A DNA stretch of 64,000 bases, taken from contig NW_027062665.1 in assembly GCF_032884065.1 (NCBI RefSeq), positions 248,001 to 312,000 on the forward strand, in the 5' to 3' direction. The notes under the pieces are model-generated. The model made no database searches. It worked only from the letters and a program-made list of their open reading frames with translations, and was not told where the DNA came from. Every line of letters starts with the position of its first letter. The first letter of the stretch is position 1. Made by a program: the position numbers and the translations under genes. This document shows positions 3,361 to 64,000 of this stretch, in pieces. Origin of the DNA: Artemia franciscana. Its lineage: Eukaryota > Arthropoda > Branchiopoda > Anostraca > Artemiidae.

Positions 3361-3593
3361 CTTTAAATATGCAATACCTTTAATTAAGGTTATAACATAT
3401 TGTCAAAAGTGCCATATTAGCTCTTAGCTCTTGTTTTTTTTGACAAAAACTTCCAGAGCTAAAGTAGTTCAGTATTCCTTATTATATACTGTGGTAATTT
3501 TTGTTTTGCCAACTGCTTTTTGTTGAAATATTATTGTAGTTTTTTTTTATTTTGCCATTTGCATTAATACATAAATTATAATTTTAAATTAGG

Positions 3594-3799
3594 TCATTCT
3601 GAGGGTATTATTCGTTGTCCCCCAAAAAACGCCCCCCATAATGGATATATGGGATACGTTTTAGTGGAAGATACAGCAAGGAAATGTTAAAGACCATTAA
3701 AAACAGCAAGATGTTTTGCATCATCTCTCACAAAATAAGAACGGATCTGGTCTACGTTAATAAGAGCACGAATTTACTAGAACTGCAATATTTTTTTCA
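3594..3799 (+). pseudogene. Unknown conserved exon-like segment of R1 (frameshifted copy)
   Basis: An acceptor-like ttttaaattag precedes, and a donor-like gtgagt follows, a segment of about 205 bases that reads HSEGIIRCPPKNAP, then NGYMGYVLVEDTA. Relative to the inverted copy near 50490-50697, which is open for about 70 codons, this copy lacks one base after VEDTA and so shifts frame. I do not recognise the protein. The splice-like borders and the codon-preserving match between copies suggest an exon carried by a repeat. Confidence 0.5.
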
Positions 3800-4290
3800 A
3801 AGTGAGTTTTTCCTTTAAATATTCAATTTTTTTAATTAAATTTACAAACATTTTCATTTAGATTAGAGTGAAGTGAAGTAGGGAGAGAGATCTAATGAGG
3901 AGTGCATTGGTAGTATAGCCTTGCTTTAGTTCAGGCTAAAGTTGAACTAGTAGATGGTGCTGGAAAAAGTCACGATAATTTTCTCTGATTGTTGCTAACA
4001 GTGTGAAATTCTTACTCACTATTTCTTTTGTTTTCTTCGTTTTTGATTACATAGCAACTAAAACAATTAAGTAGTTTCTGGAATTCTTAAATGTTTATTA
4101 TGTACAACCAAAATTATTCACGCTAAAGTATTCAAGTTCTTAAAAAAAAAAAAAAAAAAAAAACGTTAAAATTCTTTATCCTTTGAGGTGAAAGAGTCTT
4201 TCTGAAATAATTATGCATAAGAAATAACTAAATAAGGACGAAAGACCCTAAAATCACCGAAAAAGGTGTTATAGTTTTAAGATAGACTAG

Positions 4291-4715
4291 GGCGTCTTAA
4301 ACTATTGGTTGCGACCTCAAGTTGGGTCGCGTGGCAAAATTTTTCGGTCGCAAAAGATTTCAAAGTTAAATATTTAAATACGCGATTTTATAACATCCAG
4401 ATGTTTATTTTTGTCAGCTGAACTTATAAAGATTCATGGAAGAGGAATTGTTATTCTGTCTTCCTATAAAAGACCTTACTAGAGGGAAGGACATAAATTG
4501 TAAAGTTTGCAAATTTTTATTACTGAAGGTTTAAAGGAAAAATTACTGTTGATCTTACTCAGATGATGTAATTGCAATAACAGTCAAAAATATTGGTTAC
4601 AGCTAATCATAATAGCCGCTCATAATGATAAGCAAAAACAATTCCAACAACAGCTCCAGAATCGAATGATTTGCTTCAGGATGCGGTTAAGGTTATAAAT
4701 TTTATCAAGATAATA
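4291..4715 (+). mobile_element. ZBED-type hAT transposon relic, 5' end
   Basis: The left end has the pattern typical of hAT elements with ZBED-like transposases: CTTAAACTATTGGTTGCGACC followed by GGGTCGCG. Inside, one frame reads MEEELLFCLPIKDLTRGKDI near 4437-4496, matching the EELLFC.PL...T.G.DIF strand of ZBED transposases. Further on, APESNDLLQDAVKVINFIK near 4660-4710 matches the conserved AVKVVN.IK segment. Most of the protein is deleted, and the copy ends abruptly at about 4715. Confidence 0.7.
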
Positions 4716-21399: not shown

Positions 21400-24300
21400 G
21401 GTTGTATAGTGCTTGTCCTGCATTTTCAGTTAATACAGTAGTTGAGAGATAACCTTGGATTTCCTTAGTTTGAACTCAGACAGGACCAACGCATACTTTT
21501 CTAGGAATTTGGGATCGACTGTGGTGTTGCAGTTATCTACGCCTGCGGCTGCTAGCACTGGGTGTTTCGAACCCGGAGGGCTCGCCTTAACAAGCGTTAA
21601 GGCCCCCGAAAAAGATTCACGCCAGGCAGTTGACCGTTGGGCTAGTACAGTCTTCAGGCGCAGCGAACCGAGTGACCTAAGAACATTACAGTGGTGGCAG
21701 CGGTACTGAGTTAAAAAAGGGACATCCAAGGGCTAGGTCTCTTCCGTCATGTCTTTGACAGAAGAGCAGGAAAAGAAAATATCCTCTCTCACGACGGTAT
21801 TAGGGATAGCAAAAAGTATTCCTGAATATGCGGGAACAAGCGACGTAGATGAGTTCATTGAAAGTCTCGAAATCTTCAATGAACTTGCACAGCCGTATGA
21901 CTTTAAGACTAAGAAGCAGCGTCTAGCGACTAGGCTAAGAGGAAGTGCCTTGCAATATTTTGATTCTGTTAGAGATATGGAAACTGTATATGACTGTATG
22001 AACAAATTAATTGAGACTTTTAAAGCTAGGTTTATTGAAACAAGTTCGACCGAAAAACTAAAAACAGAAGTAGTAACATTTGATAGCTCCATGAGCATTA
22101 GGGAGTATGCAGACAAAATTTGTAGAGCAGTATGTTTACAGCTAGGAAAAACTGGGGCAGATGAAACAATCCAAAAAGTACAATTACACGCATTTACGCA
22201 GGGATTGTCGAAAAAATTAATTAGACTTTTACTGTCTCGAAAACCAGATTCACTGGATGAAGCCACAAGGCTCATAGAGAGAGAAATACAAATAGATGAA
22301 ACAATGAAAAAATTTGAACAAATGTCGATCAATATAACAGAAGGAGAGAATAACAGGGATCGGGGTAGAAAGCGAGTAAGATTTTTTAAGGAAACTCAGA
22401 AGGACGGGTCTAGAAGCTTTTTTCGACCCAGATTTGAGGAGACAACTGGAGATTGGAAGCGATTTCATAAGAAAGACAAAAGAGGAGACCAAAGGACGAA
22501 TCTGAAAAGACAGGGGATCACCTGCTATTATTGCGGAAAGCCTAGTCATTGTGCTTCTGAATGTCGTACCAGAATTCGTAATGGAGACAGAGGTTACAGA
22601 GAATATGGATCCCAAAGGCAGGTAAATCAGACAAATTGTGGACCCAGAGGAGAAGAATCCAAAGGGTCTCCTCGAGGAAGGGTCAAAGGACGATTTTTCA
22701 GACCATTTAGCGCCAACAGGGACATCCCAGGACCAAGCAACAAATGCACACCTGGAAGAGATGGAGGAAATTTTGTTAGAGAATTCATCCCCAGAAACCA
22801 AAGAATGGTTCAGGCAAATGCAACAGAGGAGTCATGGGACGATCCTACACCAAGCTCATTTTGGCCAAACTACATATCAGGAAACGGTCATGGGGGAAAT
22901 TTAAACGAAATGCCAAGCCTTTGAGGGTCGTAAAGGCTGCGAGTCGCACTAGACCCTTATACAGTGTTCAATGTGGTGATTTTCATAATTCTACGAATTT
23001 ACCCATAGTTCGATGTTTTAGTATAAAGTGTTTTAAAAATGTACCTTGTCTAATTGATACGGGGGCTTCGACTTCAATGATCAGAGAGGAAATATTTAGG
23101 AGACTACCGTCAAATATACAAAATAAAATTCAAAAATGTACGAACAGCCTAACATCAATCACAGGTCATCAGTTGAGCATTTTGGGGGAATGCCATTTAA
23201 AACTTCATACAGACAAAGAAGGGATCATTGTGCGGATGATTATTTGCAGGAAACTGCCATTTCCATGCATACTAGGGGTAGATACACTTCGAAAATATGG
23301 TATAATTTGGAATCCGACCAGTAATGAAATCAAAATCACTAGCCCCACAATAAAAAGGGATTTTAATTGCACAACTTCACAGGATACCAATCCTTGCCAA
23401 ACATATGAATTACAGCTTAATAATAAGGTAACAATAGAGGCAAGGACTTGCATTCAGGTTTTAGCAACAACAAATACTGAACCCAATCAGCGAATAACTG
23501 CTTTAATAGAAGGCTATGCGATAGACAAATAGCCTTCTATTTTTGTTGAAAGTCAGCTTTTGACCATAGAAAGGGGGACAGCGTTCTTGAAAATGTCAAA
23601 TATGACCAATCAAAAGGTCAAGATTCCAAAAATTAAGCTAGGAGTAGCAGAACAGATTTCTCATGAAAATATCAGGTCACTTGAAAATTTCAAGTTATGG
23701 GCAAATAGTGTACAGGATACATCTTTCAATACACCACGATCAAAGCAGGAGGAATATGGCATGACAAAAACTGAATTCTTGGCACAGTTTGACCTTAAAC
23801 ATTTGTCGCAGAGCACCATACAGCAAGTTGGTGAGATTTTGTGGGAATACACAAATAATCATACTCAGATAATCAGACACAAGTCTGATTATGCTTAACA
23901 CATTTATTTACACACAAAATACCCACAGAAGGCCCCCCGATTAGAAAGCAACCATACTAAACACCTTATCATTTACGATTGTGGCTAGATAAACAAATTA
24001 AAGACATGGAAACACAAGGGGTCATCAAAGAAGCTGTTAGCGAATGGTGTTTTCCATTGGTTATTGTGCGAAAGAAAGATAACACATGGCGATGTTGTGT
24101 GGATTTTAGAGCCTTGAACGCTGTTACAGTGAAAGATGTAATGAAATTTCCCCGCATAGATTCCATTTTGGACTCACTAGGAGGATCTAATTTCTACACT
24201 AGTTTCGATCTGATGGCTGGTTACTGGCAAATAGCACTAGATCCCGAATCCAAGCATAAGGCTACTGTCATATTAGACGATGGTAGGACATTCACATTTC

Positions 24301-27095
24301 AGCGGATGCCTTTCGGTTTATCTTTCAGTCCGAATTGCTTCAGCAGACTCATGAATTTGGTTCTGAAAGAGAACGATCAGGAAAATGTTTCTCACACTAA
24401 CACCAAAAAGAAAACAGACACACTGATCTATTTGGATGATGTCATTTTGTTCACTGAAACAAATGAAAGTCAGTTGGATGGACTGAAAAGAATTTTGGGA
24501 AAATTCGAGAGAGCAGGTTTGAAATTAAAACCCCAAAAACTACAAATATTGGTGCAGAAGCTGGTCTTCTTAGGTCATCAAATAAATCAAGGGACCATCT
24601 CTCCAAACCCAGATAAACTAGAAATTATCAAGGAACTAAAGCCTCCAATTAATAAGAAAACCTGTAGATCAGTGTGTGGATTATTAAGCTATTTCTGGCG
24701 CTACGTTCAAAATTATGCTGCTATCGCTAAACCTCTTACCGACCTCCTTAAGAAATCTGGAAATTTCGAATGGCCTCCAGCAGCAGTAGAAGCCCTTTCA
24801 AGGCTGAAACAGGAATTGTTAAAAGCTCCTGTCTTAGAGCTTCCCAACCTTTCTCATGATTTTTGCTTACAAACGGATACATCATCAGTAGGTATAGGAG
24901 CCGTGCTCTTCAATATTAATCCTAATGGAAAGGAGTCGATTGTTCAATATGCGAGTCGTGCTTTAACTGAGGCTGAAAGAAAGTATTCCACAGTTGAACG
25001 AGAATGTTTAGCTGCCGTCGTGTATATAGAACATTTTCGACAATTTCTCTTGGTGAAGAAACTTACCTTGAGGGTAGACCAAAAATCGCTAATTTGATTG
25101 CATACCATGCAAAACAGCTCCGCAAGGTTAACACGATGGGTGCTTCGTCTTCAAGCTTTTGACTATAATCCAATCTACATCAAAGGGCGTAGTACTATAT
25201 TGCCAGATTTTTTGTCTCGAAATCCAAAGGAAATATCAGAACAATCTTTGACTATAGCCGAAATATAAGAGGAGAGCGCCAGCTTTTCGATAAGAAACAT
25301 AGCACTTCATCAGGACAAAGACAATTTTTGCTCATCAATGAAAAAATTTATAGCGGAGGGTAAGGAATTACCCGAACACTACAAGCATCATATGAAGGAC
25401 ATAGATCATTACGAACTAGACGAAGACAAAAATGTCTTAGGAAGATACTACAGGCCATTACAGACGTATAGGCAAAATGACACCCGATTAATACCAGATA
25501 TACCAAAGAGTATGGAGGGAGAAGTTATTTATTTCTCACATGTCGTAAATGGGTGCCATATAGGAGAAGCAAAACCATGGGTAGAATCAAGGGAAATTTC
25601 CATTTTCCAAATATGTATAAAAAGGTCAAAGAATTTATTCAGAGCTGCGAGAATTGCGCAAAACACAAATCACCACAAACAATGCCACGAGCAGAATTGG
25701 GGACTTATGGAGTACCAGCAGAAGTTGGAGACTATATCAATTGACATCTGGGGCTCAGGTGGTGGGCTTCCAGTATCAGCTCAAGGAAACAGGTGTGTTC
25801 TCACCATCGTGGACCATTTCAACTCAGTTTTATACGCCTACCCTGTGCCCGATGAAAAAGCAAGCACTATTGCAAAAACTCTAGTCACTCGCTTATTTTT
25901 GGAACATGGTATTTTTCCCAAAACCATTCTAACAGATAATGGGCATTGCTTTCGGGCCAAACTGCTAGACGAAGTCACCAGCTACCTTAAGATAAAGAGG
26001 TGGTATACATCAGCTTATATGGGCATGTGTAATGGGAAAGTAGAACGTAAACACCGTGAGCTTGCATACATGTTGGGTATTCATGCTAAGCAAGAACCAA
26101 ATCATTGGGACGATCACCTACCGTTTGCAGTATTCGCAATAAATACCGCTTATTCTGCTACTTTAAGAGACACGCCGTTTTTCATACAGCACTTGCGGGA
26201 TCCCAAGATTTGTATGGAGTCTATAGGTAATGAGCGTGTATACTATAATCTGGATCAGTATAAACAAGAAATGATTATGAGAATGAAAAAGGCAATGGAA
26301 CAGGTAGCTAAAAACTTAGAAAAAGCTAAGGTAAAACAAAAAGATAAATATGATCGTAGAGTTAAAAATACACGGGAATATAAAATAGGAGATATAGTCT
26401 GGGTTCAAAAACCAAATTTGGAAGGAACAAAAAAGCTAAAAGAAAAATGGGATGGACCTTTTCGTGTGATAAAAATTCTTTCCAACAATTTAACATATAT
26501 CTTGAGGCATTCAAAAAAGCAAACAGAGGAAATAGTACACCATAACCGCATCAAACCTGGTTTCTATCCCGAGCCATGGAAAGTGAAACCTGTGCGGGAA
26601 AATTATTTAGATACTGATGAAATGGCAGCCCCGGTTCTAACACATCAGCCATATCAGTTCTTAAGTCTTTTAACAATTATAACAAATGGGAGGAATTATA
26701 GTATCTAGCACGCACTTGGATGGACTACCTCAAACAATACAACCCGAAGGAAGACTTGTCAGATTCACCCGAATCGATTGACGTCGAATCTGGAGACGAG
26801 AATCCAAAGCAACATTTCTTTCCAACTAAACAGAGTTCACCGATTCCTCCGGCAGTCAATCCCTCCACCATTACAGAAGCTATCAGCCCAATAGCTCACC
26901 CACCAAATAGTTTGCAAATGGGGGAACAGGCGAACACACCAAACATCAAACTTACCACAGGAAGAAAATTACTAACTTGTCCGGATTGTGGGCGACGTCG
27001 CATGCAAGACTGCGAGGAGCATGCACATGAAGGATTTCTGGACAGTGGTGATTACACTTGTGGCCCCAGCACCAGTGGAGCCAAAGAACCAAAGA
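21400..27095 (+). mobile_element. Ty3/gypsy LTR retrotransposon fossil, broken, 3' end missing
   Basis: Parts appear in the usual order: an LTR-like leader ending near 21688 with a primer-binding-site-like TGGTGGCAGCGG; gag (about 21750-22925) with the zinc knuckle CYYCGKPSHCASEC; an aspartic protease with LIDTGAS; reverse transcriptase with YLDDVILF; RNase H; and integrase with a DDE core and a C-terminal chromo/GPY-like region to about 26600. A Pro/Ser-rich tail follows, then a LINE cuts in at about 27095, so no 3' LTR is seen. Integrase lies downstream of RT, which fits Ty3/gypsy. It is broken, with about half a dozen breaks. Long open stretches suggest moderate age, but LTR dating is impossible here. 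Confidence 0.85.
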
Positions 27096-29330
27096 CGGAG
27101 TTCAATAGATTTCTAAAAGCTCTTCCATCAACTTTCTTGGTCCCTCTTCTTTACTTGTTTAATGGATGTTGGGAACGTGGTTATGCCCCAATAGCTTGGA
27201 AGTCTTCAACCATAGTCCGAATAAATACAGGTAAAGGAGATAGTTCTAATCCAGCTTCATATCATCCCATTGGCTTAACCACATGCATTGCTAAACTCTT
27301 TGAAAATATGATTAAGCTGAGATTTGTAGCCCCTTATTGATAATCTACTTATTGCTGAACAAGCAAGTTTTGGAAATGTAGATCAACCTTGGTATCTTAA
27401 TCACATCTTGACCATGATATTAAGAAAGCTTTTACAAGAAAGACAGTTGTATCTGCAGTCTTCTTTGACATTAAGAAAGCGTATGATACTTTGGACCCAT
27501 TTGTAATCCTTCGGCAGGTTCACAAATTTAAAGATGAAAATTTTTTCTGGAATTGGTATAGGGCAGTGCTTTCTAATAGGCCTATCAAAACTAGAGTTGG
27601 ATCTACTAAAATAGTCTCATTAGGCGTTCCTCAAGGAGGGTTCTGAGTCTTATTCTTTTCAACATAGTGATTATTGATATTATTTTCACTGATATGCCCT
27701 CAATAAAATTTGCCTTATATGCAGATGGCTAAGTCCTTTGGACTGAAGGTGCTTCTCCTGAAACTTGTCAACCCAAGCTCCAAGGAGCTATTGATAAACT
27801 GTCAATATGGCTTAATACAAAAAAGTGTGCTCTTTTTATCCCAAAAACTACTGGCATGTTTTTTTCTAGGATAAATGATCATAGACAAGATCGTCCCTCA
27901 ACTAATCTGACTCTATATAAATAGCACATTCATTTTGCCAGGAATGTGAAGTTTCTAGGTATTTGACTTGATAATAAGTTAAATTGGAATGTTCATATTT
28001 CTTAACTGACAGATGTACTCAAAAAACGGCTGAATTTTATGTATGCTGTTACTGGCCAAAAGTGGGGTGTTAGCCGAGATGGTCTTCGAAAACTATTCAT
28101 GTCCATAATATATGGAAAGATTGAATATTGTCTCCCTGTGTATTACTCAGCTTCAAAAAATTTAATTTCTAAAAATGAATCAATAGTGCACCATGGCATG
28201 AGACTAATCATGAGACTAATTGCAGCTCTCTTCAATGAGATTAATATCCCTTCTTTAGAAGAAATATTCTTGAAACTTTCCTCTAATTATTTCATGAGAG
28301 TAAATACTAATCAAAACCACCATGTTCTCAAGAAGTGTCCCATAAATCACACATTTTTCCTGTGAAAATTAGAAGCCACATAGTAGTCCAGCCATTGTCA
28401 AGTTAACTTCCTTACTGAATGGTATATGTGTTCCCAAGAACCTAATCTTTTCTTGCCAGACCCAAATATTCTCCAATACTCCTAATACCACTGATAATGT
28501 TATAGATATAAATATTCCTGGCATGGATTGCCCTAAGAATAAAATGAAGAGTCTAATCCTTTGTCAACTAAAATTATCTAAAATGGTAGAATTTTGTAAT
28601 TGGAAAGATATTTACTGATGGATCAGTCTAAAAAAAGATGGAAAGGCATCCATAGGCATTATTTCTGAGTAGAATGGTTCATCAGTTGGAATTAGGGTTT
28701 CAGATAGAATTTTAATTTTTCATGCGGAATGCCTTGCTCTCCAAAAAGCTCTGGACATAGTGCCGGAAGCAGGATCAGGTGTATTTGTTATCTTTCCTGA
28801 TTCTAAAATTGTTTGTTCTGATCTAGGCAAGGGAGAGTTATTCCAATCATTGTATATCTACAGAAGAAGATTCAGAAAAAAATGTCTTCTCATGCTGTTC
28901 AACTGAAAATGATTTGGGTTCCTTCTTACATAACGATTAGGGGAAACAAAATTGCTGACAGTATTGCAAAACAGGCTATTAACCATCCAATTATTTGGAA
29001 GATTGCTCCCACAGTAAATGAATCCACAAACTTAATAACCTCTACTGCAAATTCTCTTAGAATCAATAATTTCTGTATTGTAACAACAAATATATATGTT
29101 TGGTCTTTTGCAGGTTACTGTATCATAAATCACCTTATCCACCCAAACAGGAAACTCTATTGTCAATCTGAGGACAGGACATGCAATGACCAGATCTTGT
29201 CAAGCACAACATCATCTTACAGATAGCAAGTCAGGCCTTTTTATAGGTGTGTAGATATTGATGAAACAATTGATCACATTCTCTCAGAATGTCCTGTTTC
29301 ACAATTGAGAGAAATATTCTAATCAGAAAA
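27096..29330 (+). pseudogene. LINE reverse transcriptase / RNase H pseudogene
   Basis: RT pieces in order: LPSTFLVPLLYLFNGCWERG and NPASYHPIGLTTCIAKLFEN (27120-27320), FFDIKKAYDTLDP (27460-27500), LGVPQGGF (27620-27645) and ALYADG near 27714-27730 in place of YADD. Then KLFMSIIYGKIEYCLPVYYS (28090-28150). RNase H follows: FTDGSV (28615), HAECLALQKALDIVP (28718-28760) and IWVPSYITIRGNKIADSIAK (28912-28970). The YADD box has lost its second aspartate in this copy and the frame is interrupted repeatedly, so no activity is expected. Confidence 0.8.
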
Positions 29331-42716: not shown

Positions 42717-43555
42717 TTATGTGTTTTTCCACTCGTGTCCCAATATCCTTACTTCATTTTCTTATTTTAACTTCTTTATACTCACTATGAGACATCTGTG
42801 TTGTTTATCTTTGATAGATTTATTTACTCAAGAGGCTATACCACGGAGATAAAGATCTTCTTTTTACGACCAGGTTATCTACTTTATCTATGTCTAGATC
42901 ATATTAGGTGAAGATGACACATGAGCTCCCTCCGCCTATTCCCCAAACACATAAAATTACATTGAAACTCATCCATTAGCCATTCATCACCAAACAAAAT
43001 ATTTTTCATTATTTTTACCTCTTGCAAAATGACTTGAACAACCCAAACCCCTCATGTCAAACTTAAACCAATAAATATAACTTCTTAATAACATAAAAAT
43101 TAATTTTAAGAAGAGCAAGATTATACAAAACAATTTTCGTAAATACAGAATGTAAAATCACTAACATAAATGTAAATAAACCCACCTTCCCCACCAAAAA
43201 AAAAGATTCATTAAAAAAATTTTAAACCTGAGCAATTATCCTTTGTGCAGCCGTCTTAAGGATCTTCGGGAACTCAAGAATATCGCACCCCAGAAATTAA
43301 TTATCAATAAAATATTATAAAAAAAAAACAATGGTACAAAGAAAAAGTGTCTTTTTATGAGTACGTCTATAGCATTATTATTATAATATCTACATTTTTG
43401 TAAATATAAAAGTACCTTCAATAGGTTCCCCAACCTCATCATTTGAGCCTTTTGGTCTGCCAAAGTTGCTAGAACAGGCTCATTTGAAAGTTTCACATGT
43501 TTACGATTGGATAAAGGAGTCACAAGGCCATCCAAATTTCTGTGCTGAACGAGGA
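42714..43555. other. Stretch without recognised gene
   Basis: No recognised element. The minus-strand open frame at 43236-43565 overlaps the edge of the R4 copy but shows no similarity of its own. Confidence 0.3.
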
Positions 43556-43985
43556 ACATTCGCAACGATAACTATGATCCTAAATACGTTTCCCTTTAAT
43601 CGTAAAAATGATTTTATTTTTCTAATATCTTCTTCTTTGTCTGTTGCCTGTAGCATAATGTGTAGCTCCCAATCACTGACGTTTACAATACATTCAGTCA
43701 CGAGTGAATGATAAAATGAAAAAACTATGATGACTCCGAGAAGGACCCATGATACATATTTTGGGTATATACGCCTGAAAGATGGAGCTCAGAATCTATT
43801 TACAGGTAAGTTAAATTCCCTTATTTTTCAAGATTACTTGAAAGATCTGTCGGTAGGGTTCATATTCAGAGTTAATGTGGATAGTATTGAATTTGACACT
43901 GGTAAAAAAAAAAAGTCAGTTATGTTCCTTGTGCTAATGAGGGTTTGGAAAGAGACTGTTTGGAATCATTATGCTAAAGAATTGT
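43556..43985 (-). repeat. Repeat R4, solitary copy, inverted relative to the array at 61.5-64 kb
   Basis: Minus-strand sequence 43701-43556 reads NVSDWELHIMLQATDKEED, then LRLKGNVFRIIVIVANV, matching the forward exon of the array. Plus-strand sequence 43727-43910 reads MTPRRTHDTYFGYIRLKDGA, then KLNSLIFQDYLKDLSVGFIF and RVNVDSIEFDTGKKK, matching the opposite-strand ORF of the array. After these parts the copy diverges. It shows that the two divergent ORFs travel as one unit. Confidence 0.75.
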
Positions 43986-44124
43986 GATACTGTTAAAAAG
44001 ACTGTTAAATAGTTAGATACTGTTAATTAATATGCAAATTCCGTTTTAATTATTTATTTGTGGAGAGCCAAGATCAAAACATGAATGAATTAAAAAACGT
44101 CCAGAAATTAAATTAAAAAAAACA

Positions 44125-49205: not shown

Positions 49206-50022
49206 TGGTTTATAAAATTGTTGACACTGGAAAATAATTCGAAGGATTTTTTTCAACCATAATTTTCCAAATGTCGATCCTTTTGTTATGTAAAACTTTC
49301 AATTTCATTATTTGAAGTAAATATATTGCACAGACAAGTTGATTACTTTGTGTAATTTTACAAAGATATCTGAAATATGACACAACTTGGATAGCCAGGT
49401 CGTTTTGAAGAAAACTAGCAGTTTCACATTATCCTTTGTTAAAATATATTTCAATTTCGTCCTTTAATAACAATAATCATCTTAACCTTAGACCTCTTGA
49501 CAACAACTTTACTTTCGCATGTAACAATAGAGTTGTGTAGTTGGAAGCCGTATCCCTACAGAGATTTGAAAATAATGATTGTCAAGAACGTGGCCCTTAA
49601 TAAAATTTATAACCTTAACAGCATCCTGAAGCAAATCATTCGATTCTGGAGCTAATTGTTTTCGCTTATCATTATGAGCGGCTATTATGACTAGCTGTAA
49701 CCAATATTTTTGACTGTTATTGCAATTACATCATCTGAGTATAATCAACAGTAATTTTTCTTTATTAAACCTCCAGTAATAAAAATTTGCAAACTTTACA
49801 ATTTATGTCCTTCCCTCTAGTAAGGTCTTTTATAAGAAGACAAAATAACAATTCCTCTTCCATGAATCTTTATGAGTTCAGCTGACAAAAATAAACATCT
49901 AGATGTTATGAAATCGCCTATTTAAATATTTAACTTTAAAATCTTTTGCGACCAAAAAATTTTGCCACGCGACCCAACAGGAGGTCGCAACCAATAGTTT
50001 AAGACGCCCTGGTCTATCTTAA
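49206..50022 (-). mobile_element. ZBED-type hAT transposon relic, minus-strand copy
   Basis: The 5' end (AAACTATTGGTTGCGACC on the minus strand) lies at 49985-50022. Transposase pieces follow downwards: APESNDLLQDAVKVINFIK (near 49610-49665), LLLHAKVKLLSRG (near 49490-49530), FFKTTWLSKLCHISDIFVK (near 49365-49420) and KRIDIWKIMVEKNPSNYFP (near 49225-49285). These match ZBED transposases in order (LLLHTEVRWLSRG, WLAKLAYLADIF, KIELW in that family). The frame is interrupted many times. This copy extends further into the transposase than the one at 4291-4715. Confidence 0.75.
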
Positions 50023-50775
50023 AACTATAACACCTTTTTCGGCGATTTTAGGGTCTTTCGTCCTTATTTAGTTATTTCTTATGCATAATTATTTCAGAAA
50101 GACTCTTTCACCTCAAAGGATAATGAATATCAATAAGTTTCTTTTTTCTTTTTTTTTTAAGAACTTGAATACTTTAGCGTGAATAATTTTGGTTGTACAT
50201 AATAAACATTTAAGAATTCCAGAAACTACTTAATTGTTTTAATTGCTATATAATCAAAAACGAAGAAAACAAAAGAAATAGTGAGTAAAAATTTCACACT
50301 GTTAGCAACAATCAGAGAAAATTGTCGTGACTTTTTCCAGCACCATCTACTAGTTCAACTTTAGCCTGAACTAAAGAAAGGCTATACTACCAATACACTC
50401 CTCATTATATCTCTCTCCCTACTTCACTCCACTCTAATCTAAATGAAAATGTTTTTAACTTTAATTAAAAAAATTTAATATTTAAAGGAAACACTCACTT
50501 TGAAAAAAATATTGCAGTTCTAGTAAATTCGTGCTCTTATCAACGTAGACCAGATCCGTTCTTATTTTGTGAGAGATGATGCAAAACATCTTGCTTTTTT
50601 TAATGGCCTTTAACATTTCCCTGGCTATATCTTCCACTAAAACGTATCCCATATATCCATTATGGGGGGCGTTTTCTTGGGGACAACGAATAATACCCTC
50701 AGGATGACCTAATAAAAATTATAATTTATGTATTAATGCAAATGGCAAAATAGAAAAAAAACTACAGTGATATTA
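49600..50775 (-). repeat. Composite repeat R1, inverted copy
   Basis: It matches 3545-4715 in reverse orientation through the exon-like ORF, the intron-like DNA, the segment with atgcataagaaataacta and the hAT relic. It is followed directly by the 5' tip of R2 copy C at 50802. The two R1 blocks are about 45 kb apart in opposite orientation. Confidence 0.75.
50490..50697 (-). CDS. Unknown conserved exon-like ORF of R1 (open copy)
   Basis: On the minus strand, after acceptor-like tag, the frame is open for about 70 codons: GHPEGIIRCPQENAPHNGY, MGYVLVEDIAREMLKAIKKS, KMFCIISHKIRTDLVYVDKS, TNLLELQYFFQ. It ends at a donor-like gtgagt. The other copy (3594-3799) agrees at nearly all positions but has a one-base loss. 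I do not recognise the protein. It has no signal peptide or membrane segment and looks like a small globular alpha/beta piece. It could be an exon of a host gene spread by the repeat, or of the repeat's own lost gene. Confidence 0.5.
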
Positions 50776-52730: not shown

Positions 52731-52900
52731 CTGGTCTACACAGTATCTGGTCTACACAGTAGACTGTGTAGACCAGTCTGGTCTACTGACCAGACTGTGT
52801 AGACCAGACTGGTAGACCAGACTGTGTAGACCAGATACTGTGTAGACACAGTATCTGGTCTACACAGTCTGGTCTACACAGTAGATCTGGTCTACACAGT
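52731..52900. repeat. Dense direct and inverted array of a 14-bp motif
   Basis: CTGGTCTACACAGT occurs in full at 52731, 52747, 52855, 52869 and 52887. Its reverse complement occurs in full at 52763, 52794 and 52821. Partial copies lie in between. The 170 bases can fold into several alternative long hairpins. There is no coding content. It directly adjoins the 3' edge of the mitochondrial insert. Confidence 0.9.
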
Positions 52901-52944
52901 ATGTTGGATTGTTTTCTGCCACCTGAAAAATATACAAGAAGAGT

Positions 52945-55392: not shown

Positions 55393-55518
55393 ATTCCTGA
55401 AATAATCCACCTCATCTTCAGTCATCTTTATTTTTGGATTCACATCTGCCAGGCAACAAGCGCAGCACAAAATGCTCAGATAATAGCCCAAAGAAAGTGC
55501 AAATTGTTTGAATAATAT
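55393..55518 (-). CDS. Small exon-like segment b (cysteine-containing), unknown
   Basis: After acceptor-like tttttcctgatag, 42 codons are open: ILFKQFALSLGYYLSILCCA, then CCLADVNPKIKMTEDEVDYF, ending RN before donor gtaagt (minus strand). It begins with a hydrophobic, Cys-rich part and ends acidic. It is homologous to segment a just upstream (shared ILF, GY, a cysteine pair, VN.K and DE.D). The protein is not recognised. Confidence 0.45.
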
Positions 55519-55559
55519 CTATCAGGAAAAACATCATGGCTTAGTGTTTAAAGATTATT

Positions 55560-55714
55560 TAAGGGTTTATATAATTAGCCATTGTAGCATCTAACTCATC
55601 CTTGGAAACATTGGATTTTACGTTAGACTTTGCTGAGCACCAAGTGCACATGACCAACCCCCTAATTTTGTTCAGCCCATAGCCAATATCAATTGGAAAC
55701 GAACTGAACAAAAT
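55560..55714 (-). CDS. Small exon-like segment a, paralogue of segment b, unknown
   Basis: After acceptor-like ttgttctcattag the minus strand reads ILFSSFPIDIGYGLNKIRGL, then VMCTWCSAKSNVKSNVSKDE and LDATMANYINP, to a stop near 55560. The intron before it is also homologous to that before segment b (aataatctttaaa), so the pair arose by tandem duplication that included intron sequence. It lacks the donor site seen in b, so it is either terminal or decayed. Confidence 0.4.
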
Positions 55715-58030: not shown

Positions 58031-58487
58031 GTGACATTGCATATACTTTTGACAAAAAAGCGGTTATGATATTTTTGGAAAAAGAAATAAAAGCGGTTTT
58101 CGTATGATGGATTTGCTTTGTTTGTTCTAGTTGAAGATGAACAGAATATTTTGTGTGTGGTAGTTTGTTTGTTATCAGCAGTGTTAGAGTCAGTCTCAGG
58201 AATTGTGATTCTGTTAAATAGTTCGAGTATGTTTAAATATTACAGATAACCAATAAAGATGTTAAGGATTGCCTATTATGATTTAGAGCTGCAGTATTAT
58301 GTAACAATTAAAAGTTTTTCCCGTCTATATGGATAAAAAATTTGAAGGCACAGGCTAAATGCACATTAATATTACTTTATAGTAAGTAAATAAAAATAAT
58401 ACGGTATTAGACTTTACAGTCCCTACCGGCAGTGCTGATCTCTGTTTCTTGGTCTTTCATCCAGGAAGTGCCATGGTGGGTTGGGGG
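58031..58487. other. Spacer without recognised gene
   Basis: Nothing recognised between the minisatellite and the hAT end at 58488. Confidence 0.3.
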
Positions 58488-61059: not shown

Positions 61060-61430
61060 AAATATGATTTTATTAATACTTTGGACCTTTTCTGTATACC
61101 TATACAAATTAATTAATCCTTTTTAATGCAAATATAGCAAATATTCTCATAATTGAAATATAACAAGCAAATAAAGCAATACTCTATGCCAACTGCCCAT
61201 CCAAACGATATACATACGGCCAAAGGGTTCGCGTTGAACACAGGGTCGTATGCGAAAACCAAAGTCTGAGCAATTTTTACACCAACATTTAGAAGAAAAA
61301 CTAAAAATGTAAACAAAAAACTTGATTTCAATAATTGATTTCAATAAAATATGATTTTATTAATACTTCGGACATTTTCTATTATGCAACTTTCCTATGC
61401 AAATTAATTTAAACCCCTTGTTTGAAGCAT
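61060..61430 (-). repeat. Diverged inverted R4 copies flanking the array
   Basis: The minus strand reads FLLNVGVKIAQTLVFAYDPV, then FNANPLAVCISFGWAVGIEY, a diverged form of the array exon (compare LLTTLKTWFFAYDPIF and HPVSV.SSF.L..AIE). The non-coding words aattaatttgtat, cagaaaagg and aaagtattaataaaatcatat also match the array in reverse. A second small inverted piece follows at 61345-61430. Confidence 0.65.
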
Positions 61431-61639
61431 ATATACCAAACATTCTTGTAATTTAAATGGAATGAATAACTAAAGGTTGCATAACTGCAGAATGCAAAAA
61501 ACAGGATCTTAAGTATTAGTAAGTTTTAAGTCAGGCAGTTAGACTTAATTCAGGCGTATATACCCAAAATATGTGTCATGGGTCCTTCTCGGAGTCATCT
61601 TTATTTTTTCATTCTCTCATTCACTCGTGACTAAATGTA

Positions 61640-61890
61640 TAGTTAACGTCAGTGATTGGGAGCTGCACATTATGCTTCAGGCAACAGTCAATGAAGGAGA
61701 TGTTAGAAAAGTAAAATCAATTCTACGGTTAAAAGGAAATGTATATAGGATCATAGTGGTCATTGCGAATGTTCTTCTGACAACCTTAAAGACATAGTTT
61801 TTCGCATATGATCCTATTTCTAAGGAACACCCTGTTTCAGTTCTTTCATCTTTTGTACTGACATTTGCGATCGAAATGATTATTCCAAAG
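61640..61890 (+). pseudogene. R4 array exon, unit 1 (one stop)
   Basis: Same segment as in unit 2: VNVSDWELHIMLQATVNEGD, then VRKVKSILRLKGNVYRIIVV. Here the tryptophan codon before FFAYDP is a stop (acatag instead of acatgg), so this copy is likely inactive. The acceptor-like and donor-like borders are the same. Confidence 0.6.
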
Positions 61891-62180
61891 GTATGTAAAC
61901 TTTATTTGCTCATTGTATTTAAACTATGTGAATGTTTTGTATATTTGATTTAAAAAAGGATTAATTAATTTGTATCGGTACAACAGAAAAGGACAAAGTA
62001 TTAATCAAATCATATTTCTTGTTCTAACAGAACAAGAAAAGAAAGCTGCAAGTTAACGCAAGTACTAGCTTCTGGTCAGTTTCGACTAGGTGGGACAGGA
62101 TTCAAAACAACTGTGATGAGACTCGTCACAATTCTTTAGCATAATGATTCCAAACACTCTCTTCCCAACCCCTCATTAGC

Positions 62181-62381
62181 TCAAGGAACATAACATATTT
62201 TTTTTTTACCAGTGTCAAAGTCAATACTATCCACATTAACTCTGAATATGAACCCTACCGACAGATCTTTCACATAATCTTGAAAAATAAGGGAATTTAA
62301 CTTCCCTGTAAATTCATTCTGAGCTCCATCTTTCAGGCGTATACACACAAAATATGTGTCATGGGTCCTTCTCGGAGTCAT
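62181..62381 (-). CDS. R4 array reverse-strand ORF, unit 1/2 boundary, unknown
   Basis: The minus strand reads MTPRRTHDTYFVCIRLKDGA, then QNEFTGKLNSLIFQDYVKDL and SVGFIFRVNVDSIDFDTGKK. The ATG lies about 20 bases from the pyrimidine tract of the forward exon, so the two ORFs are divergent and nearly touching. The same ORF occurs at 63700-63900 and at 43727-43910; the copy near 62950-63150 has a one-base change of frame. Some copies carry a donor-like caggtaagt after QNxF/YT and others cagggaagt. Function unknown. Confidence 0.45.
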   Translation of the reverse strand: MTPRRTHDTYFVCIRLKDGAQNEFTGKLNSLIFQDYVKDLSVGFIFRVNVDSIDFDTGKKKICYVP

Positions 62382-62425
62382 CTTTATTTTTTCATTCTCT
62401 CATTCACTCGTGACTGAATGTATAG

Positions 62426-62673
62426 TTAACGTCAGTGATTGGGAGCTGCACATTATGCTTCAGGCAACAGTCAATGAAGAAGATGTTAGAAAAGTAAAAT
62501 CAATTCTACGGTTAAAAGGAAATGTATATAGGATCATAGTGGTCATTGCGAATGTTCTTCTGACAACCTTAAAGACATGGTTTTTCGCATATGATCCTAT
62601 TTTTAAGGAACACCCTGTTTCAGTTCTTTCATCTTTTGTACTGACATTTGCGATCGAAATGATTATTCCAAAG
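62426..62673 (+). CDS. R4 array exon, unit 2: unknown two-membrane-segment protein piece
   Basis: A pyrimidine-rich tract (ttattttttcattctctc) and tatag precede 62426, and donor gtatgt follows 62673. The 248-base segment reads VSDWELHIMLQATVNEEDVR, KVKSILRLKGNVYRIIVVIA, NVLLTTLKTWFFAYDPIFKE, HPVSVLSSFVLTFAIEMIIP. It has a charged amphipathic front, one hydrophobic stretch around RIIVVIANVLL and a second around SSFVLTFAIEM. Changes between units are few and mostly conservative. I do not recognise the family. Without a search I cannot say whether it is a receptor-like host gene exon or part of an element. The open frame extends upstream through the pyrimidine tract, but splice-like borders make an internal exon more likely. 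Confidence 0.5.
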
Positions 62674-63208
62674 GTATGTAAACTTTATTTGCTCATTGTA
62701 TTTAAACTATGAGAATGTTTTGTATATTTGCTTTAAAAAAGGATTTATTAATTTGTATCGGTACAACAGAAAAGGACAAAGTATTAATAAAATCATATTT
62801 CTTGTTCTAACAGAACAAGAAAAGAAAGCTGCATGTTAACGCAAGTACTAACTTCTGGTCAGTTTCGACTAGGTGGGACAGGATTCAAAACAACTGTGAT
62901 GAGACTCGTCACAATTCTTTAGCATAGTGATTCCAAACACTATCTTCCCAGCCCCTCATTAGCTCAAGGAACATAACTTACTTTTTTTTTTACCAGTGTC
63001 AAAGTCAATTCTATCCACATTAACTCTGAACATGAACCCTACGACAGATCTTTCACGTAATCTTGAAAAATAAGGGAATTTAACTTACCTGTATATTGAT
63101 TCTGAGCTCCATCTTTCAGGCGTATATACCCAAAATATGTGTCATGGGTCCTTCTCGGAGTCATCTTTATTTTTTCATTCTCTCATTCACTCGTGACTGA
63201 ATGTATAG

Positions 63209-63456
63209 TTAACGTCAGTGATTGGGAGCTGCACATTATGCTTCAGGCAACAGTCAATGAAGAAGATATTAGAAAAGTAAAATCAATTCTACGGTTAAAA
63301 GGAAATGTATATAGGATCATAGTGGTCATTGCGAATGTTCTTCTGACAACCTTAAAGACATGGTTTTTCGCATATGATCCTATTTTTAAGAAACACCCTG
63401 TTTCAGTTTTTTCATCTTTTGTACTGACATATGCGATCGAAATGATTATTCCAAAG
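63209..63456 (+). CDS. R4 array exon, unit 3
   Basis: Same structure as the unit 2 exon with a few substitutions: EEDIRKVKSIL, YDPIFKKHPVSVFSSFVLTY. It is open throughout and followed by donor gtatgt. The preserved frame in units 2 and 3 contrasts with the stop in unit 1. Confidence 0.5.
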
Positions 63457-63699
63457 GTATGTAAACTTTATTTGCTCATTGTATTTAAACTATGAAAATG
63501 TTTTGTATATTTGCTTTAAAAAAGGATTAATTTATTTGTATCGGTACAACAGAAAAGGACAAAGTATTAATAAAATCATATTTCTTGTTCTAACAGAACA
63601 AGAAAAGAAAGCTGCATGTTAACGCAAGTACTAACTTCTGGTCATTTTCGACTAGGGGGGACAGGATTCAAAACACTTTCTTCCCAACCCCTCATTACC

Positions 63700-63900
63700 T
63701 CAAGGAACATAACTTACTTTTTTTTTACCAGTGTCAAAGTCAATACTATCCACATTAACTCTGAATATGAACCCTACCGACAGAACTTTCACGTAATCTT
63801 GAAAAATAAGGGAATTTAACTTCCCTGTAAATTGATTCTGAGCTCCATCTTTCAGGCGTATATACCCAAAATATGTGCCATGGGTCCTTCTCGGAATCAT
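63700..63900 (-). CDS. R4 array reverse-strand ORF, unit 3/4 boundary, unknown
   Basis: The minus strand reads MIPRRTHGTYFGYIRLKDGA, then KLNSLIFQDYVKVLSVGFIF and RVNVDSIDFDTGKKK. It is open for about 66 codons. It is the counterpart of 62181-62381 and of the solitary copy at 43727-43910. No function is recognised. Confidence 0.45.
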   Translation of the reverse strand: MIPRRTHGTYFGYIRLKDGAQNQFTGKLNSLIFQDYVKVLSVGFIFRVNVDSIDFDTGKKKVSYVP

Positions 63901-63939
63901 CTTTATTTTTTCATTCTCTCATTCACTCGTGACTGAATG

Positions 63940-64000
63940 TATAGTTAACGTCAGTGATTGGGAGCTGCACATTATGCTTCAGGCAACAGTCAATGAAGAA
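63940..64000 (+). CDS. R4 array exon, unit 4, cut by window end
   Basis: The start of a fourth forward exon (VNVSDWELHIMLQATVNEE) is present and runs to the last base of the window. Confidence 0.5.

Follow-up and report, generated by a model that had tools for sequence, protein, structure and literature searches.

What is the tandem repeat that closes a 64,000-nucleotide stretch of the genome of Artemia franciscana, and do its units encode anything? The stretch, hereafter the window, is C79:248001-312000 (contig NW_027062665.1 of assembly GCF_032884065.1), where C79, like C2 or C3, is shorthand for one of the 6468 contigs of the 1.27-Gb assembly; its G+C content is 35%. Artemin, a protein not known outside Artemia, matches C2:41536064-41542575 in four pieces at 76-99% identity, with a second and weaker group of matches near C2:41574000, in keeping with a brine shrimp host. 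An original prediction, made from the letters of the window, described a tandem array of 783-bp units near the right end, each with a forward, exon-like open reading frame (ORF) and a divergent reverse ORF, and proposed either an expanding gene family with a bidirectional promoter or a mobile unit. The comparisons reported here indicate that the array is very probably a neutral tandem amplification of a 783-bp fragment of a divergent gene related to the CNNM (cyclin M, or ancient conserved domain) transporters, whose members carry a transmembrane domain (PF01595) and a CBS pair. In each unit, a single exon is flanked by intron sequence, ~210 bp on its upstream side and ~235 bp on its downstream side.

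The array was correctly recognized, and it is longer than the window. Extending it past the window end, as had been proposed, showed that it continues for a further ~6.6 kb and runs head to tail over C79:309549-318604, comprising 9056 bp, ~11.6 units and 12 copies of the exon. Any two of the 12 units differ by 0.8-4.6%, and many pairs by close to 3%; the mid-array units A03-A05 differ from one another by just 0.8-1.4%, which points to local exchange at a later time. In the natural register, in which the unit starts with TCACAATTC and ends with GAGACTCG, the array begins at position 207 and stops at position 103, and deletions are found at two internal junctions. Inside the window lie a partial unit of 577 bp, one complete unit of 783 bp, a junction that is 47 bp short and then the start of the next unit (Table 1).

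As judged from its borders and from intronless relatives, the forward ORF is a genuine exon, of 337 nt. The acceptor TTCAG is kept in all 12 array copies and the donor GTATGT in 11, the remaining copy having GTATAT. An intronless copy on C11 matches every one of the 12 units over 341 bp, equal to the exon within a few bases: the match runs from the base after TTTCAG to ~4 bases past the donor junction, and the copy then continues uninterrupted. Its next stretches match, in order, the minus strand of the window at 55520-55391 (95%), 52922-52885 (87%) and 50709-50503 (85%); its positions 1756-1858, between the third-exon and CBS-region matches, have no match in the window. Because this copy matches the exon and then passes into further exons, both exon borders are supported, and the splice-like borders of the original prediction are upheld; the copy here takes the place of the spliced RNA reads that had been proposed as a check. 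The transmembrane exon, as it is called below, occurs in at least three types: type I (the array, an inverted copy at 43.5 kb and C11), type II (C181 and C79:472 kb) and type III (C5, C79:3148 and 3199 kb, and C10). For type II, an intronless copy on C17 matches the C181 exons at its positions 589-923 and 920-1000. Immediately upstream of that intronless copy, on the minus strand of C17:44133901-44135300, lies an ORF with an AKAP7 2'-5' RNA ligase-like domain (Pfam E-value 1e-19), either a fusion or a chance neighbour.

The forward exon alone has no Pfam match. Its translation could be placed, as had been advised, through a relative on C72, an open intronless ORF of 350 codons, which aligns in the PDB with CNNM4 (E-value 6.2e-7) over residues 8-327 of 339, an alignment that spans the CBS region. 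Against Pfam, the same ORF matches CNNM with an E-value of 3e-4 over positions 3-99 of 181, at 21.0 bits and thus under the curated cut-off of 28.4, and CBS with an E-value of 0.028, likewise under cut-off. A profile built from five transmembrane exons detected CNNM4 at an E-value of 0.0014. An ankyrin-repeat reading of the forward ORF was dropped, as Pfam returned nothing for the exon by itself and CNNM was what the relative on C72 matched. The canonical CNNM gene of this genome lies at C3:19472432-19477345 (Pfam E-value 6.2e-15) and has its intron at the same codon as the array exon: the canonical exon ends in GEIIPQ/GTATGT and resumes with TTTCAG/AICSRHG (a slash marks the splice junction), the array exon ends in EMIIPK/GTATGT, and the intronless C11 copy resumes after the exon end with ILFKKFPLSLG. 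The array exon is accordingly taken to be a putative diverged CNNM transmembrane exon, corresponding to roughly the first half of the transmembrane domain.

The family resembles CNNM transporters in the order of transmembrane domain and putative CBS region and in the codon at which the intron falls, and is unlike them in the short length of the C72 relative, its score under the Pfam cut-off and an acidic residue that is off by one. In the canonical Artemia CNNM, a glutamate stands three residues before the conserved proline; in the array and type II exons, it stands four before. The acidic residue three before the proline presumably binds metal in CNNM, and its shift by one place makes conservation of the metal site doubtful. 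Artemia lives in brine. A literature search found no report on CNNM in Artemia, the sole match to that pairing concerning a bacterium, and CNNM was not mentioned among the results listed for CNNM in arthropods or for expansion of the family. The excerpted main text of the 2021 Artemia genome paper likewise contains no mention of magnesium or cyclin M.

Single copies of the unit are also found, one at C79:520714-521497 and one on contig C5269, and both begin and end exactly where the tandem unit does. The flanks of these single copies, ...TTTAACAGTA on the left and TCCACCTTC... on the right, are those of paralogous loci such as C181. At the tandem junction, the right end is joined to the left end at a common TC dinucleotide, which is the pattern of duplication via 2-bp microhomology. 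A first duplication at this microhomology could have arisen by template switching or from an excised circle, and unequal exchange would then have lengthened the array. The right array edge, with its breakpoint at natural position 103, is common to loci on C3 (~2.5 units) and C12 (~1.5 units). These two loci are 96-99% alike across most of the 10 kb compared, and C79 and C12 are 96% alike over a block extending ~400 bp past the array, to the limit of the compared stretch. This likeness, right edge included, shows that one segment, containing the tandem junction along with the right edge, has been copied from chromosome to chromosome. With the single-copy form, the junction and the supporting intronless copies all present in one genome, the array is an ordinary but well-resolved case of an exon-born tandem repeat.

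Other pieces of the same gene region are scattered about the array. The inverted copy that had been reported at 43556-43985 is real (Table 1) but is not alone, since copies of the same extent are present at C79:453 kb, C79:500 kb, C19 and C146, with part of one at C79:325 kb. The diverged inverted pieces noted at the array edge were also found, and they are what is left of older copies of the exon and its intron. Elsewhere the region occurs in tandem as a 421-bp array on C2003 (~5090-3760; 3.2 copies, 99%), made of type II transmembrane-exon pieces, some with stops, and as ~5.0-5.4-kb units on C181; on C11, five 229-bp matches within C11:44569421-44584982 represent repeated intronless copies, spaced 3526 bp apart in three of the four intervals. 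The CNNM-like family apparently tends to duplicate in tandem, in units of several sizes.

The original prediction held that both ORFs are kept open, and named a ratio of nonsynonymous to synonymous substitution rates (dN/dS) near 1, together with a lack of transcripts, as evidence to the contrary. Within the array, the corresponding ratio of proportions (pN/pS) for the exon is 0.86 (pooled, 66 pairs), and in-frame stops are present in three of the 12 exon copies. Variable columns number 20/15/14 by codon position, with no third-position excess, and make up similar fractions of the exon (49/336) and of the downstream intron (29/235). From this distribution of changes it is concluded that the array evolves neutrally, with no apparent purifying selection among units. 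Comparisons with older copies gave a different result: against six copies at dS >0.1, one array unit shows dN/dS of 0.24-0.45 (C11, 0.24; three of the 43.5-kb type, 0.33, 0.31 and 0.45; two on C181, 0.36 and 0.31). Against the close copies at C79:345 kb, C5269 and C12 the ratio is 0.85 to 2.7, on few changes, and against those at C79:520 kb and on C3 it is undefined, as there is no silent change. The forward ORF is an exon of a many-copy CNNM-like family, as the idea of an expanding gene family implied, but its copies in the array are unconstrained.

The state of the family itself is mixed. Its intronless C72 and C172 copies give dN/dS of 1.12 over 280 codons, which speaks against a living family; these copies sit within a 2.4-kb stretch that is 97% identical on both contigs, flanks included, and functionality is not claimed for them. 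Of four type II exon copies translated from C181, two are open (C181x and C181w) and two frameshifted (C181y and C181z); the copy at C79:472 kb is open, that at C79:487 kb is interrupted by a TAG, and in type III stops occur at both C79:3148 kb and C79:3199 kb. The second exon of C181 contains a stop and has no visible donor. For the CBS-region exon, the window and C11 copies give dN of 0.17 and dS of 0.10, with few changes.

The reverse ORF fares less well. The forward exon begins ~118 nt upstream of its first in-frame ATG, so that the reverse ORF is antisense to it over its first 45 nt. Its translation was searched, as had been suggested: it has no Pfam match, and all 36 matches in the genome fall within this same repeat family, nine of them holding a stop. 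In the array its pN/pS is 1.55, and it is not whole in four of the 12 units (two truncated, two interrupted); it also contains stops in the copies at C79:520 kb and on C5269, and in one of those on C3. Four old copies show 7/6/13 variable columns of 128 by codon position, a weak third-position excess. The reverse ORF, which is present as described, shows no significant coding signal and is probably not a gene.

Further exons of the CNNM-like gene lie on the minus strand of the window, opposite to the array, and, from it, beyond the remnants at 61486-61060. At 58.2 kb this gene lacks the transmembrane exon. The paralogous locus C79:340-350 kb, colinear with the window and 91-94% identical over ~6 kb, holds a piece of a type I transmembrane exon there; as a transmembrane exon is present there at C181 too, the gap is read as a loss by deletion. 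With this deletion and the inversion of the array, the local gene has no correctly oriented copy of this exon. No first exon could be identified further upstream in the CNNM-like gene. The array offers one exon of a longer coding sequence, in the opposite orientation to the other exons of the window and beside a gene that lacks it, and so probably makes no protein.

Several observations weigh against this account. Of the 12 exon copies, nine are free of stops, none falls short of 337 nt and 11 retain GTATGT, although such preservation at ~3% divergence is provisionally judged unsurprising. The left exon border depends on the one C11 copy, with the C17 copy for type II; the remaining C11 copies in the compared stretch begin inside the exon, and either reach the same right end or stop before it. 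Unit position 1 also recurs as a boundary in three settings: at the tandem junction, at the point where copies of the 43.5-kb type change to another kind of left flank, and, within ~10 bp, at the deletion at 58.2 kb. Such a recurrent boundary would also fit a mobile or recombinogenic end.

Among other explanations, the one that survives best, though improbable, is that the array might serve as a source of antisense or small RNA silencing its parent genes. In Drosophila, the Su(Ste) repeats, which are gene-derived tandem repeats, silence Stellate. As in Su(Ste), the units here derive from a gene, exon and intron together; they are antisense to the local gene, parent-type units elsewhere in the genome are 96-97% alike to the array, and coding constraint would not be needed. 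Against this reading stands the lack of any sign of selection on the array sequence.

That the array serves the neighbouring gene as a functional set of alternative exons, comparable to clusters of mutually exclusive exons, is very unlikely. The conserved acceptors and donors would suit such a set, as would the length of 337 nt, since splicing in a second array exon would shift the reading frame, as holds for mutually exclusive exons. The gene moreover has variant exons in tandem in two places, with transmembrane types II and I on C181 and second-exon variants E2b and E2a in the window, a likeness to Dscam-type clusters. Unlike in those clusters, several of the variants are decayed or truncated. 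The array is also inverted relative to the further exons of the window, its near-identical units put little diversity on offer, and neither its pN/pS nor its stops suggest a maintained repertoire.

There is equally little to recommend the view that the unit is a mobile element with a captured gene fragment, the second proposal of the original prediction. Its copies are spread over several contigs, unit position 1 recurs as a boundary with two kinds of left flank beyond it, and a near-palindrome, TGTGATGAGACTCGTCACA, was seen by eye at the junction. At the 17 left and 17 right boundaries inspected, array-internal ones included, the single copies nevertheless stand in colinear flanks, albeit with the two kinds of left flank; they share both flanks with colinear paralogous loci, not with unrelated DNA. 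The single empty site examined (58196-58200), outside any systematic survey, looks like a deletion and has no target-site duplication, and type II and III transmembrane exons lie beside the same kinds of intron sequence.

Two divergent genes with a common bidirectional promoter are hardly credible, for although the reverse ORF gives dN/dS of 0.44-0.69 in four comparisons with C181 copies, has the weak third-position excess described above and is free of stops in 27 of its 36 matches, the forward ATG lies within an exon whose acceptor precedes it, and for the reverse ORF no homologue was found outside this repeat; in the array it is unconstrained and in four of the 12 units not whole.

The part of these results that deserves specialist attention is a discordance between exons and introns in the parent family of the array. 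At paralogous loci, the introns are 78-93% identical, whereas about half of the bases of the transmembrane exons differ, silent sites included, and the similarity changes at the splice sites. Between types, the p-distance is 0.38-0.52 in the exon versus 0.07-0.23 in the right flanks; the left flanks differ by 7-17% among types I, II and the C5 copy, and are unrelated at C79:3148 and 3199 kb. The intron past the transmembrane exon is 78-80% identical over ~1 kb. At codons for the same amino acid in a type I array unit and C181x, silent differences are found in 21 of 33, and in six of eight four-fold sites, so that silent sites are saturated between types I and II. The contrast is present but weaker at the second exon: between the window and C181, the 131 nt upstream are 85% identical (111/130) and the exon 67% (69/103 aligned positions, gaps excluded), and an E2b remnant with its intron at C79:342 kb is ~81% identical to C181 up to 8 nt from the acceptor. 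The discordance is not uniform, since in type III the exon is about as distant as the flank (0.26 and 0.20 for C5 versus C79:3148 kb). Exon and flank trees have largely concordant topologies, the flank branches being the shorter ones; this speaks against conversion going on freely between types.

Positive selection by itself was rejected as an explanation, as silent sites are saturated even at codons for the same amino acid. An introner-like insertion was judged implausible, as it would need to have occurred in both flanks at the same places in three exon types. Homogenization of introns with exons kept apart, exon replacement and constraint on introns remain as candidate causes, although, as regards the last, two type III loci (C79:3148 and 3199 kb) have left flanks unrelated to the others. 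On C181, two ~5.0-5.4-kb units each carry a type II exon and, after it, a truncated type I exon; the intron downstream is the same for the two. A tentative reading, possible but far from secure, is that the CNNM-like family in Artemia has a common intron frame carrying strongly different transmembrane, and less clearly second, exons, with the array as a by-product of recombination; the route might be exon-precise replacement, or gene conversion that homogenizes introns while selection keeps exons apart.

A partial parallel is the accelerated segment switch in exons (ASSET) of snake three-finger toxin genes; there (PMC2474615), intron segments of paralogues are >85% alike, and some exon segments are 12.5-50% identical and others 60-100%. 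The two cases are alike in that introns of paralogues agree while exons strongly differ. They are unlike in that the present family encodes a non-venom membrane protein, that a whole exon differs and not short segments, and that silent sites of the transmembrane exon are saturated. If the reading is right, the family would be a non-venom case of exon switching, with the array a by-product of the recombination that drives it; the discordance would offer a place to study exon replacement or intron homogenization outside venom and immune genes.

Table 1. Positions in the window of the array, of related exon copies and of the minus-strand CNNM-like gene.
Feature	Position	Strand	Remarks
In-window part of array	61549..64000	+	Natural-register unit starts at 62126 and 62909; third junction, 47 bp short, near 63665
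Exon copy 1, putative CNNM-like transmembrane exon, 337 nt	61554..61890	+	In-frame TAG
Exon copy 2, open	62337..62673	+	Acceptor TTTCAG/G, donor CCAAAG/GTATGT
Exon copy 3, open	63120..63456	+	–
Exon copy 4, truncated by window end	63856..64000	+	–
Reverse ORF of full unit, 57 codons	62210..62381	-	Natural positions 85-256; judged not a gene
Inverted partial copy	43551..43987	-	Unit positions 1-435, 91%; left flank and first two thirds of exon; breakpoint inside exon
Diverged transmembrane-exon and intron remnants	61060..61486	-	61332-61194 is 81% identical to type II intronless copy
Transmembrane-exon block missing	58196..58200	-	Block present at C79:345 kb and C181
Second-exon variant E2b	55559..55714	-	Acceptor CATTAG/A, no donor recognized; open to stop at 55561-55559
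Second-exon variant E2a	55393..55518	-	126 nt, 42 codons; acceptor TGATAG/A, donor AAT/GTAAGT
Short third-exon match, 38 bp	52885..52922	-	87-92% to two intronless C11 copies
CBS-region exon	50503..50709	-	84-85% to intronless C11 copies; open across the 49 codons translated
Second CBS-region exon copy	3592..3797	+	Adjoins and overlaps inverted duplication 3677-4643 / 49654-50623

The window contains several further elements. An inverted duplication, 94-96% identical, covers 3592-4643 and 49654-50709, adjoining and overlapping the CBS-region exon. At 21749-27340 on the plus strand are the ORFs of a Ty3/gypsy-type long terminal repeat element: a capsid-like ORF with a zinc knuckle (both under the Pfam cut-off), a reverse transcriptase with RNase H, and an integrase. 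A transposase ORF of 328 codons on the minus strand at 11694-12680 matches DDE_Tnp_4 in Pfam (E-value 1.4e-30), and we take it to be Harbinger-like. Many diverged copies of a minisatellite-like repeat, spaced ~160-300 bp apart, occupy 47.0-52.5 kb, 59.9-60.9 kb and 5.3-6.3 kb, and at ~60.95 kb this repeat adjoins the 24-bp palindrome GGCACTTGGTTAATACCAAGTGCC.

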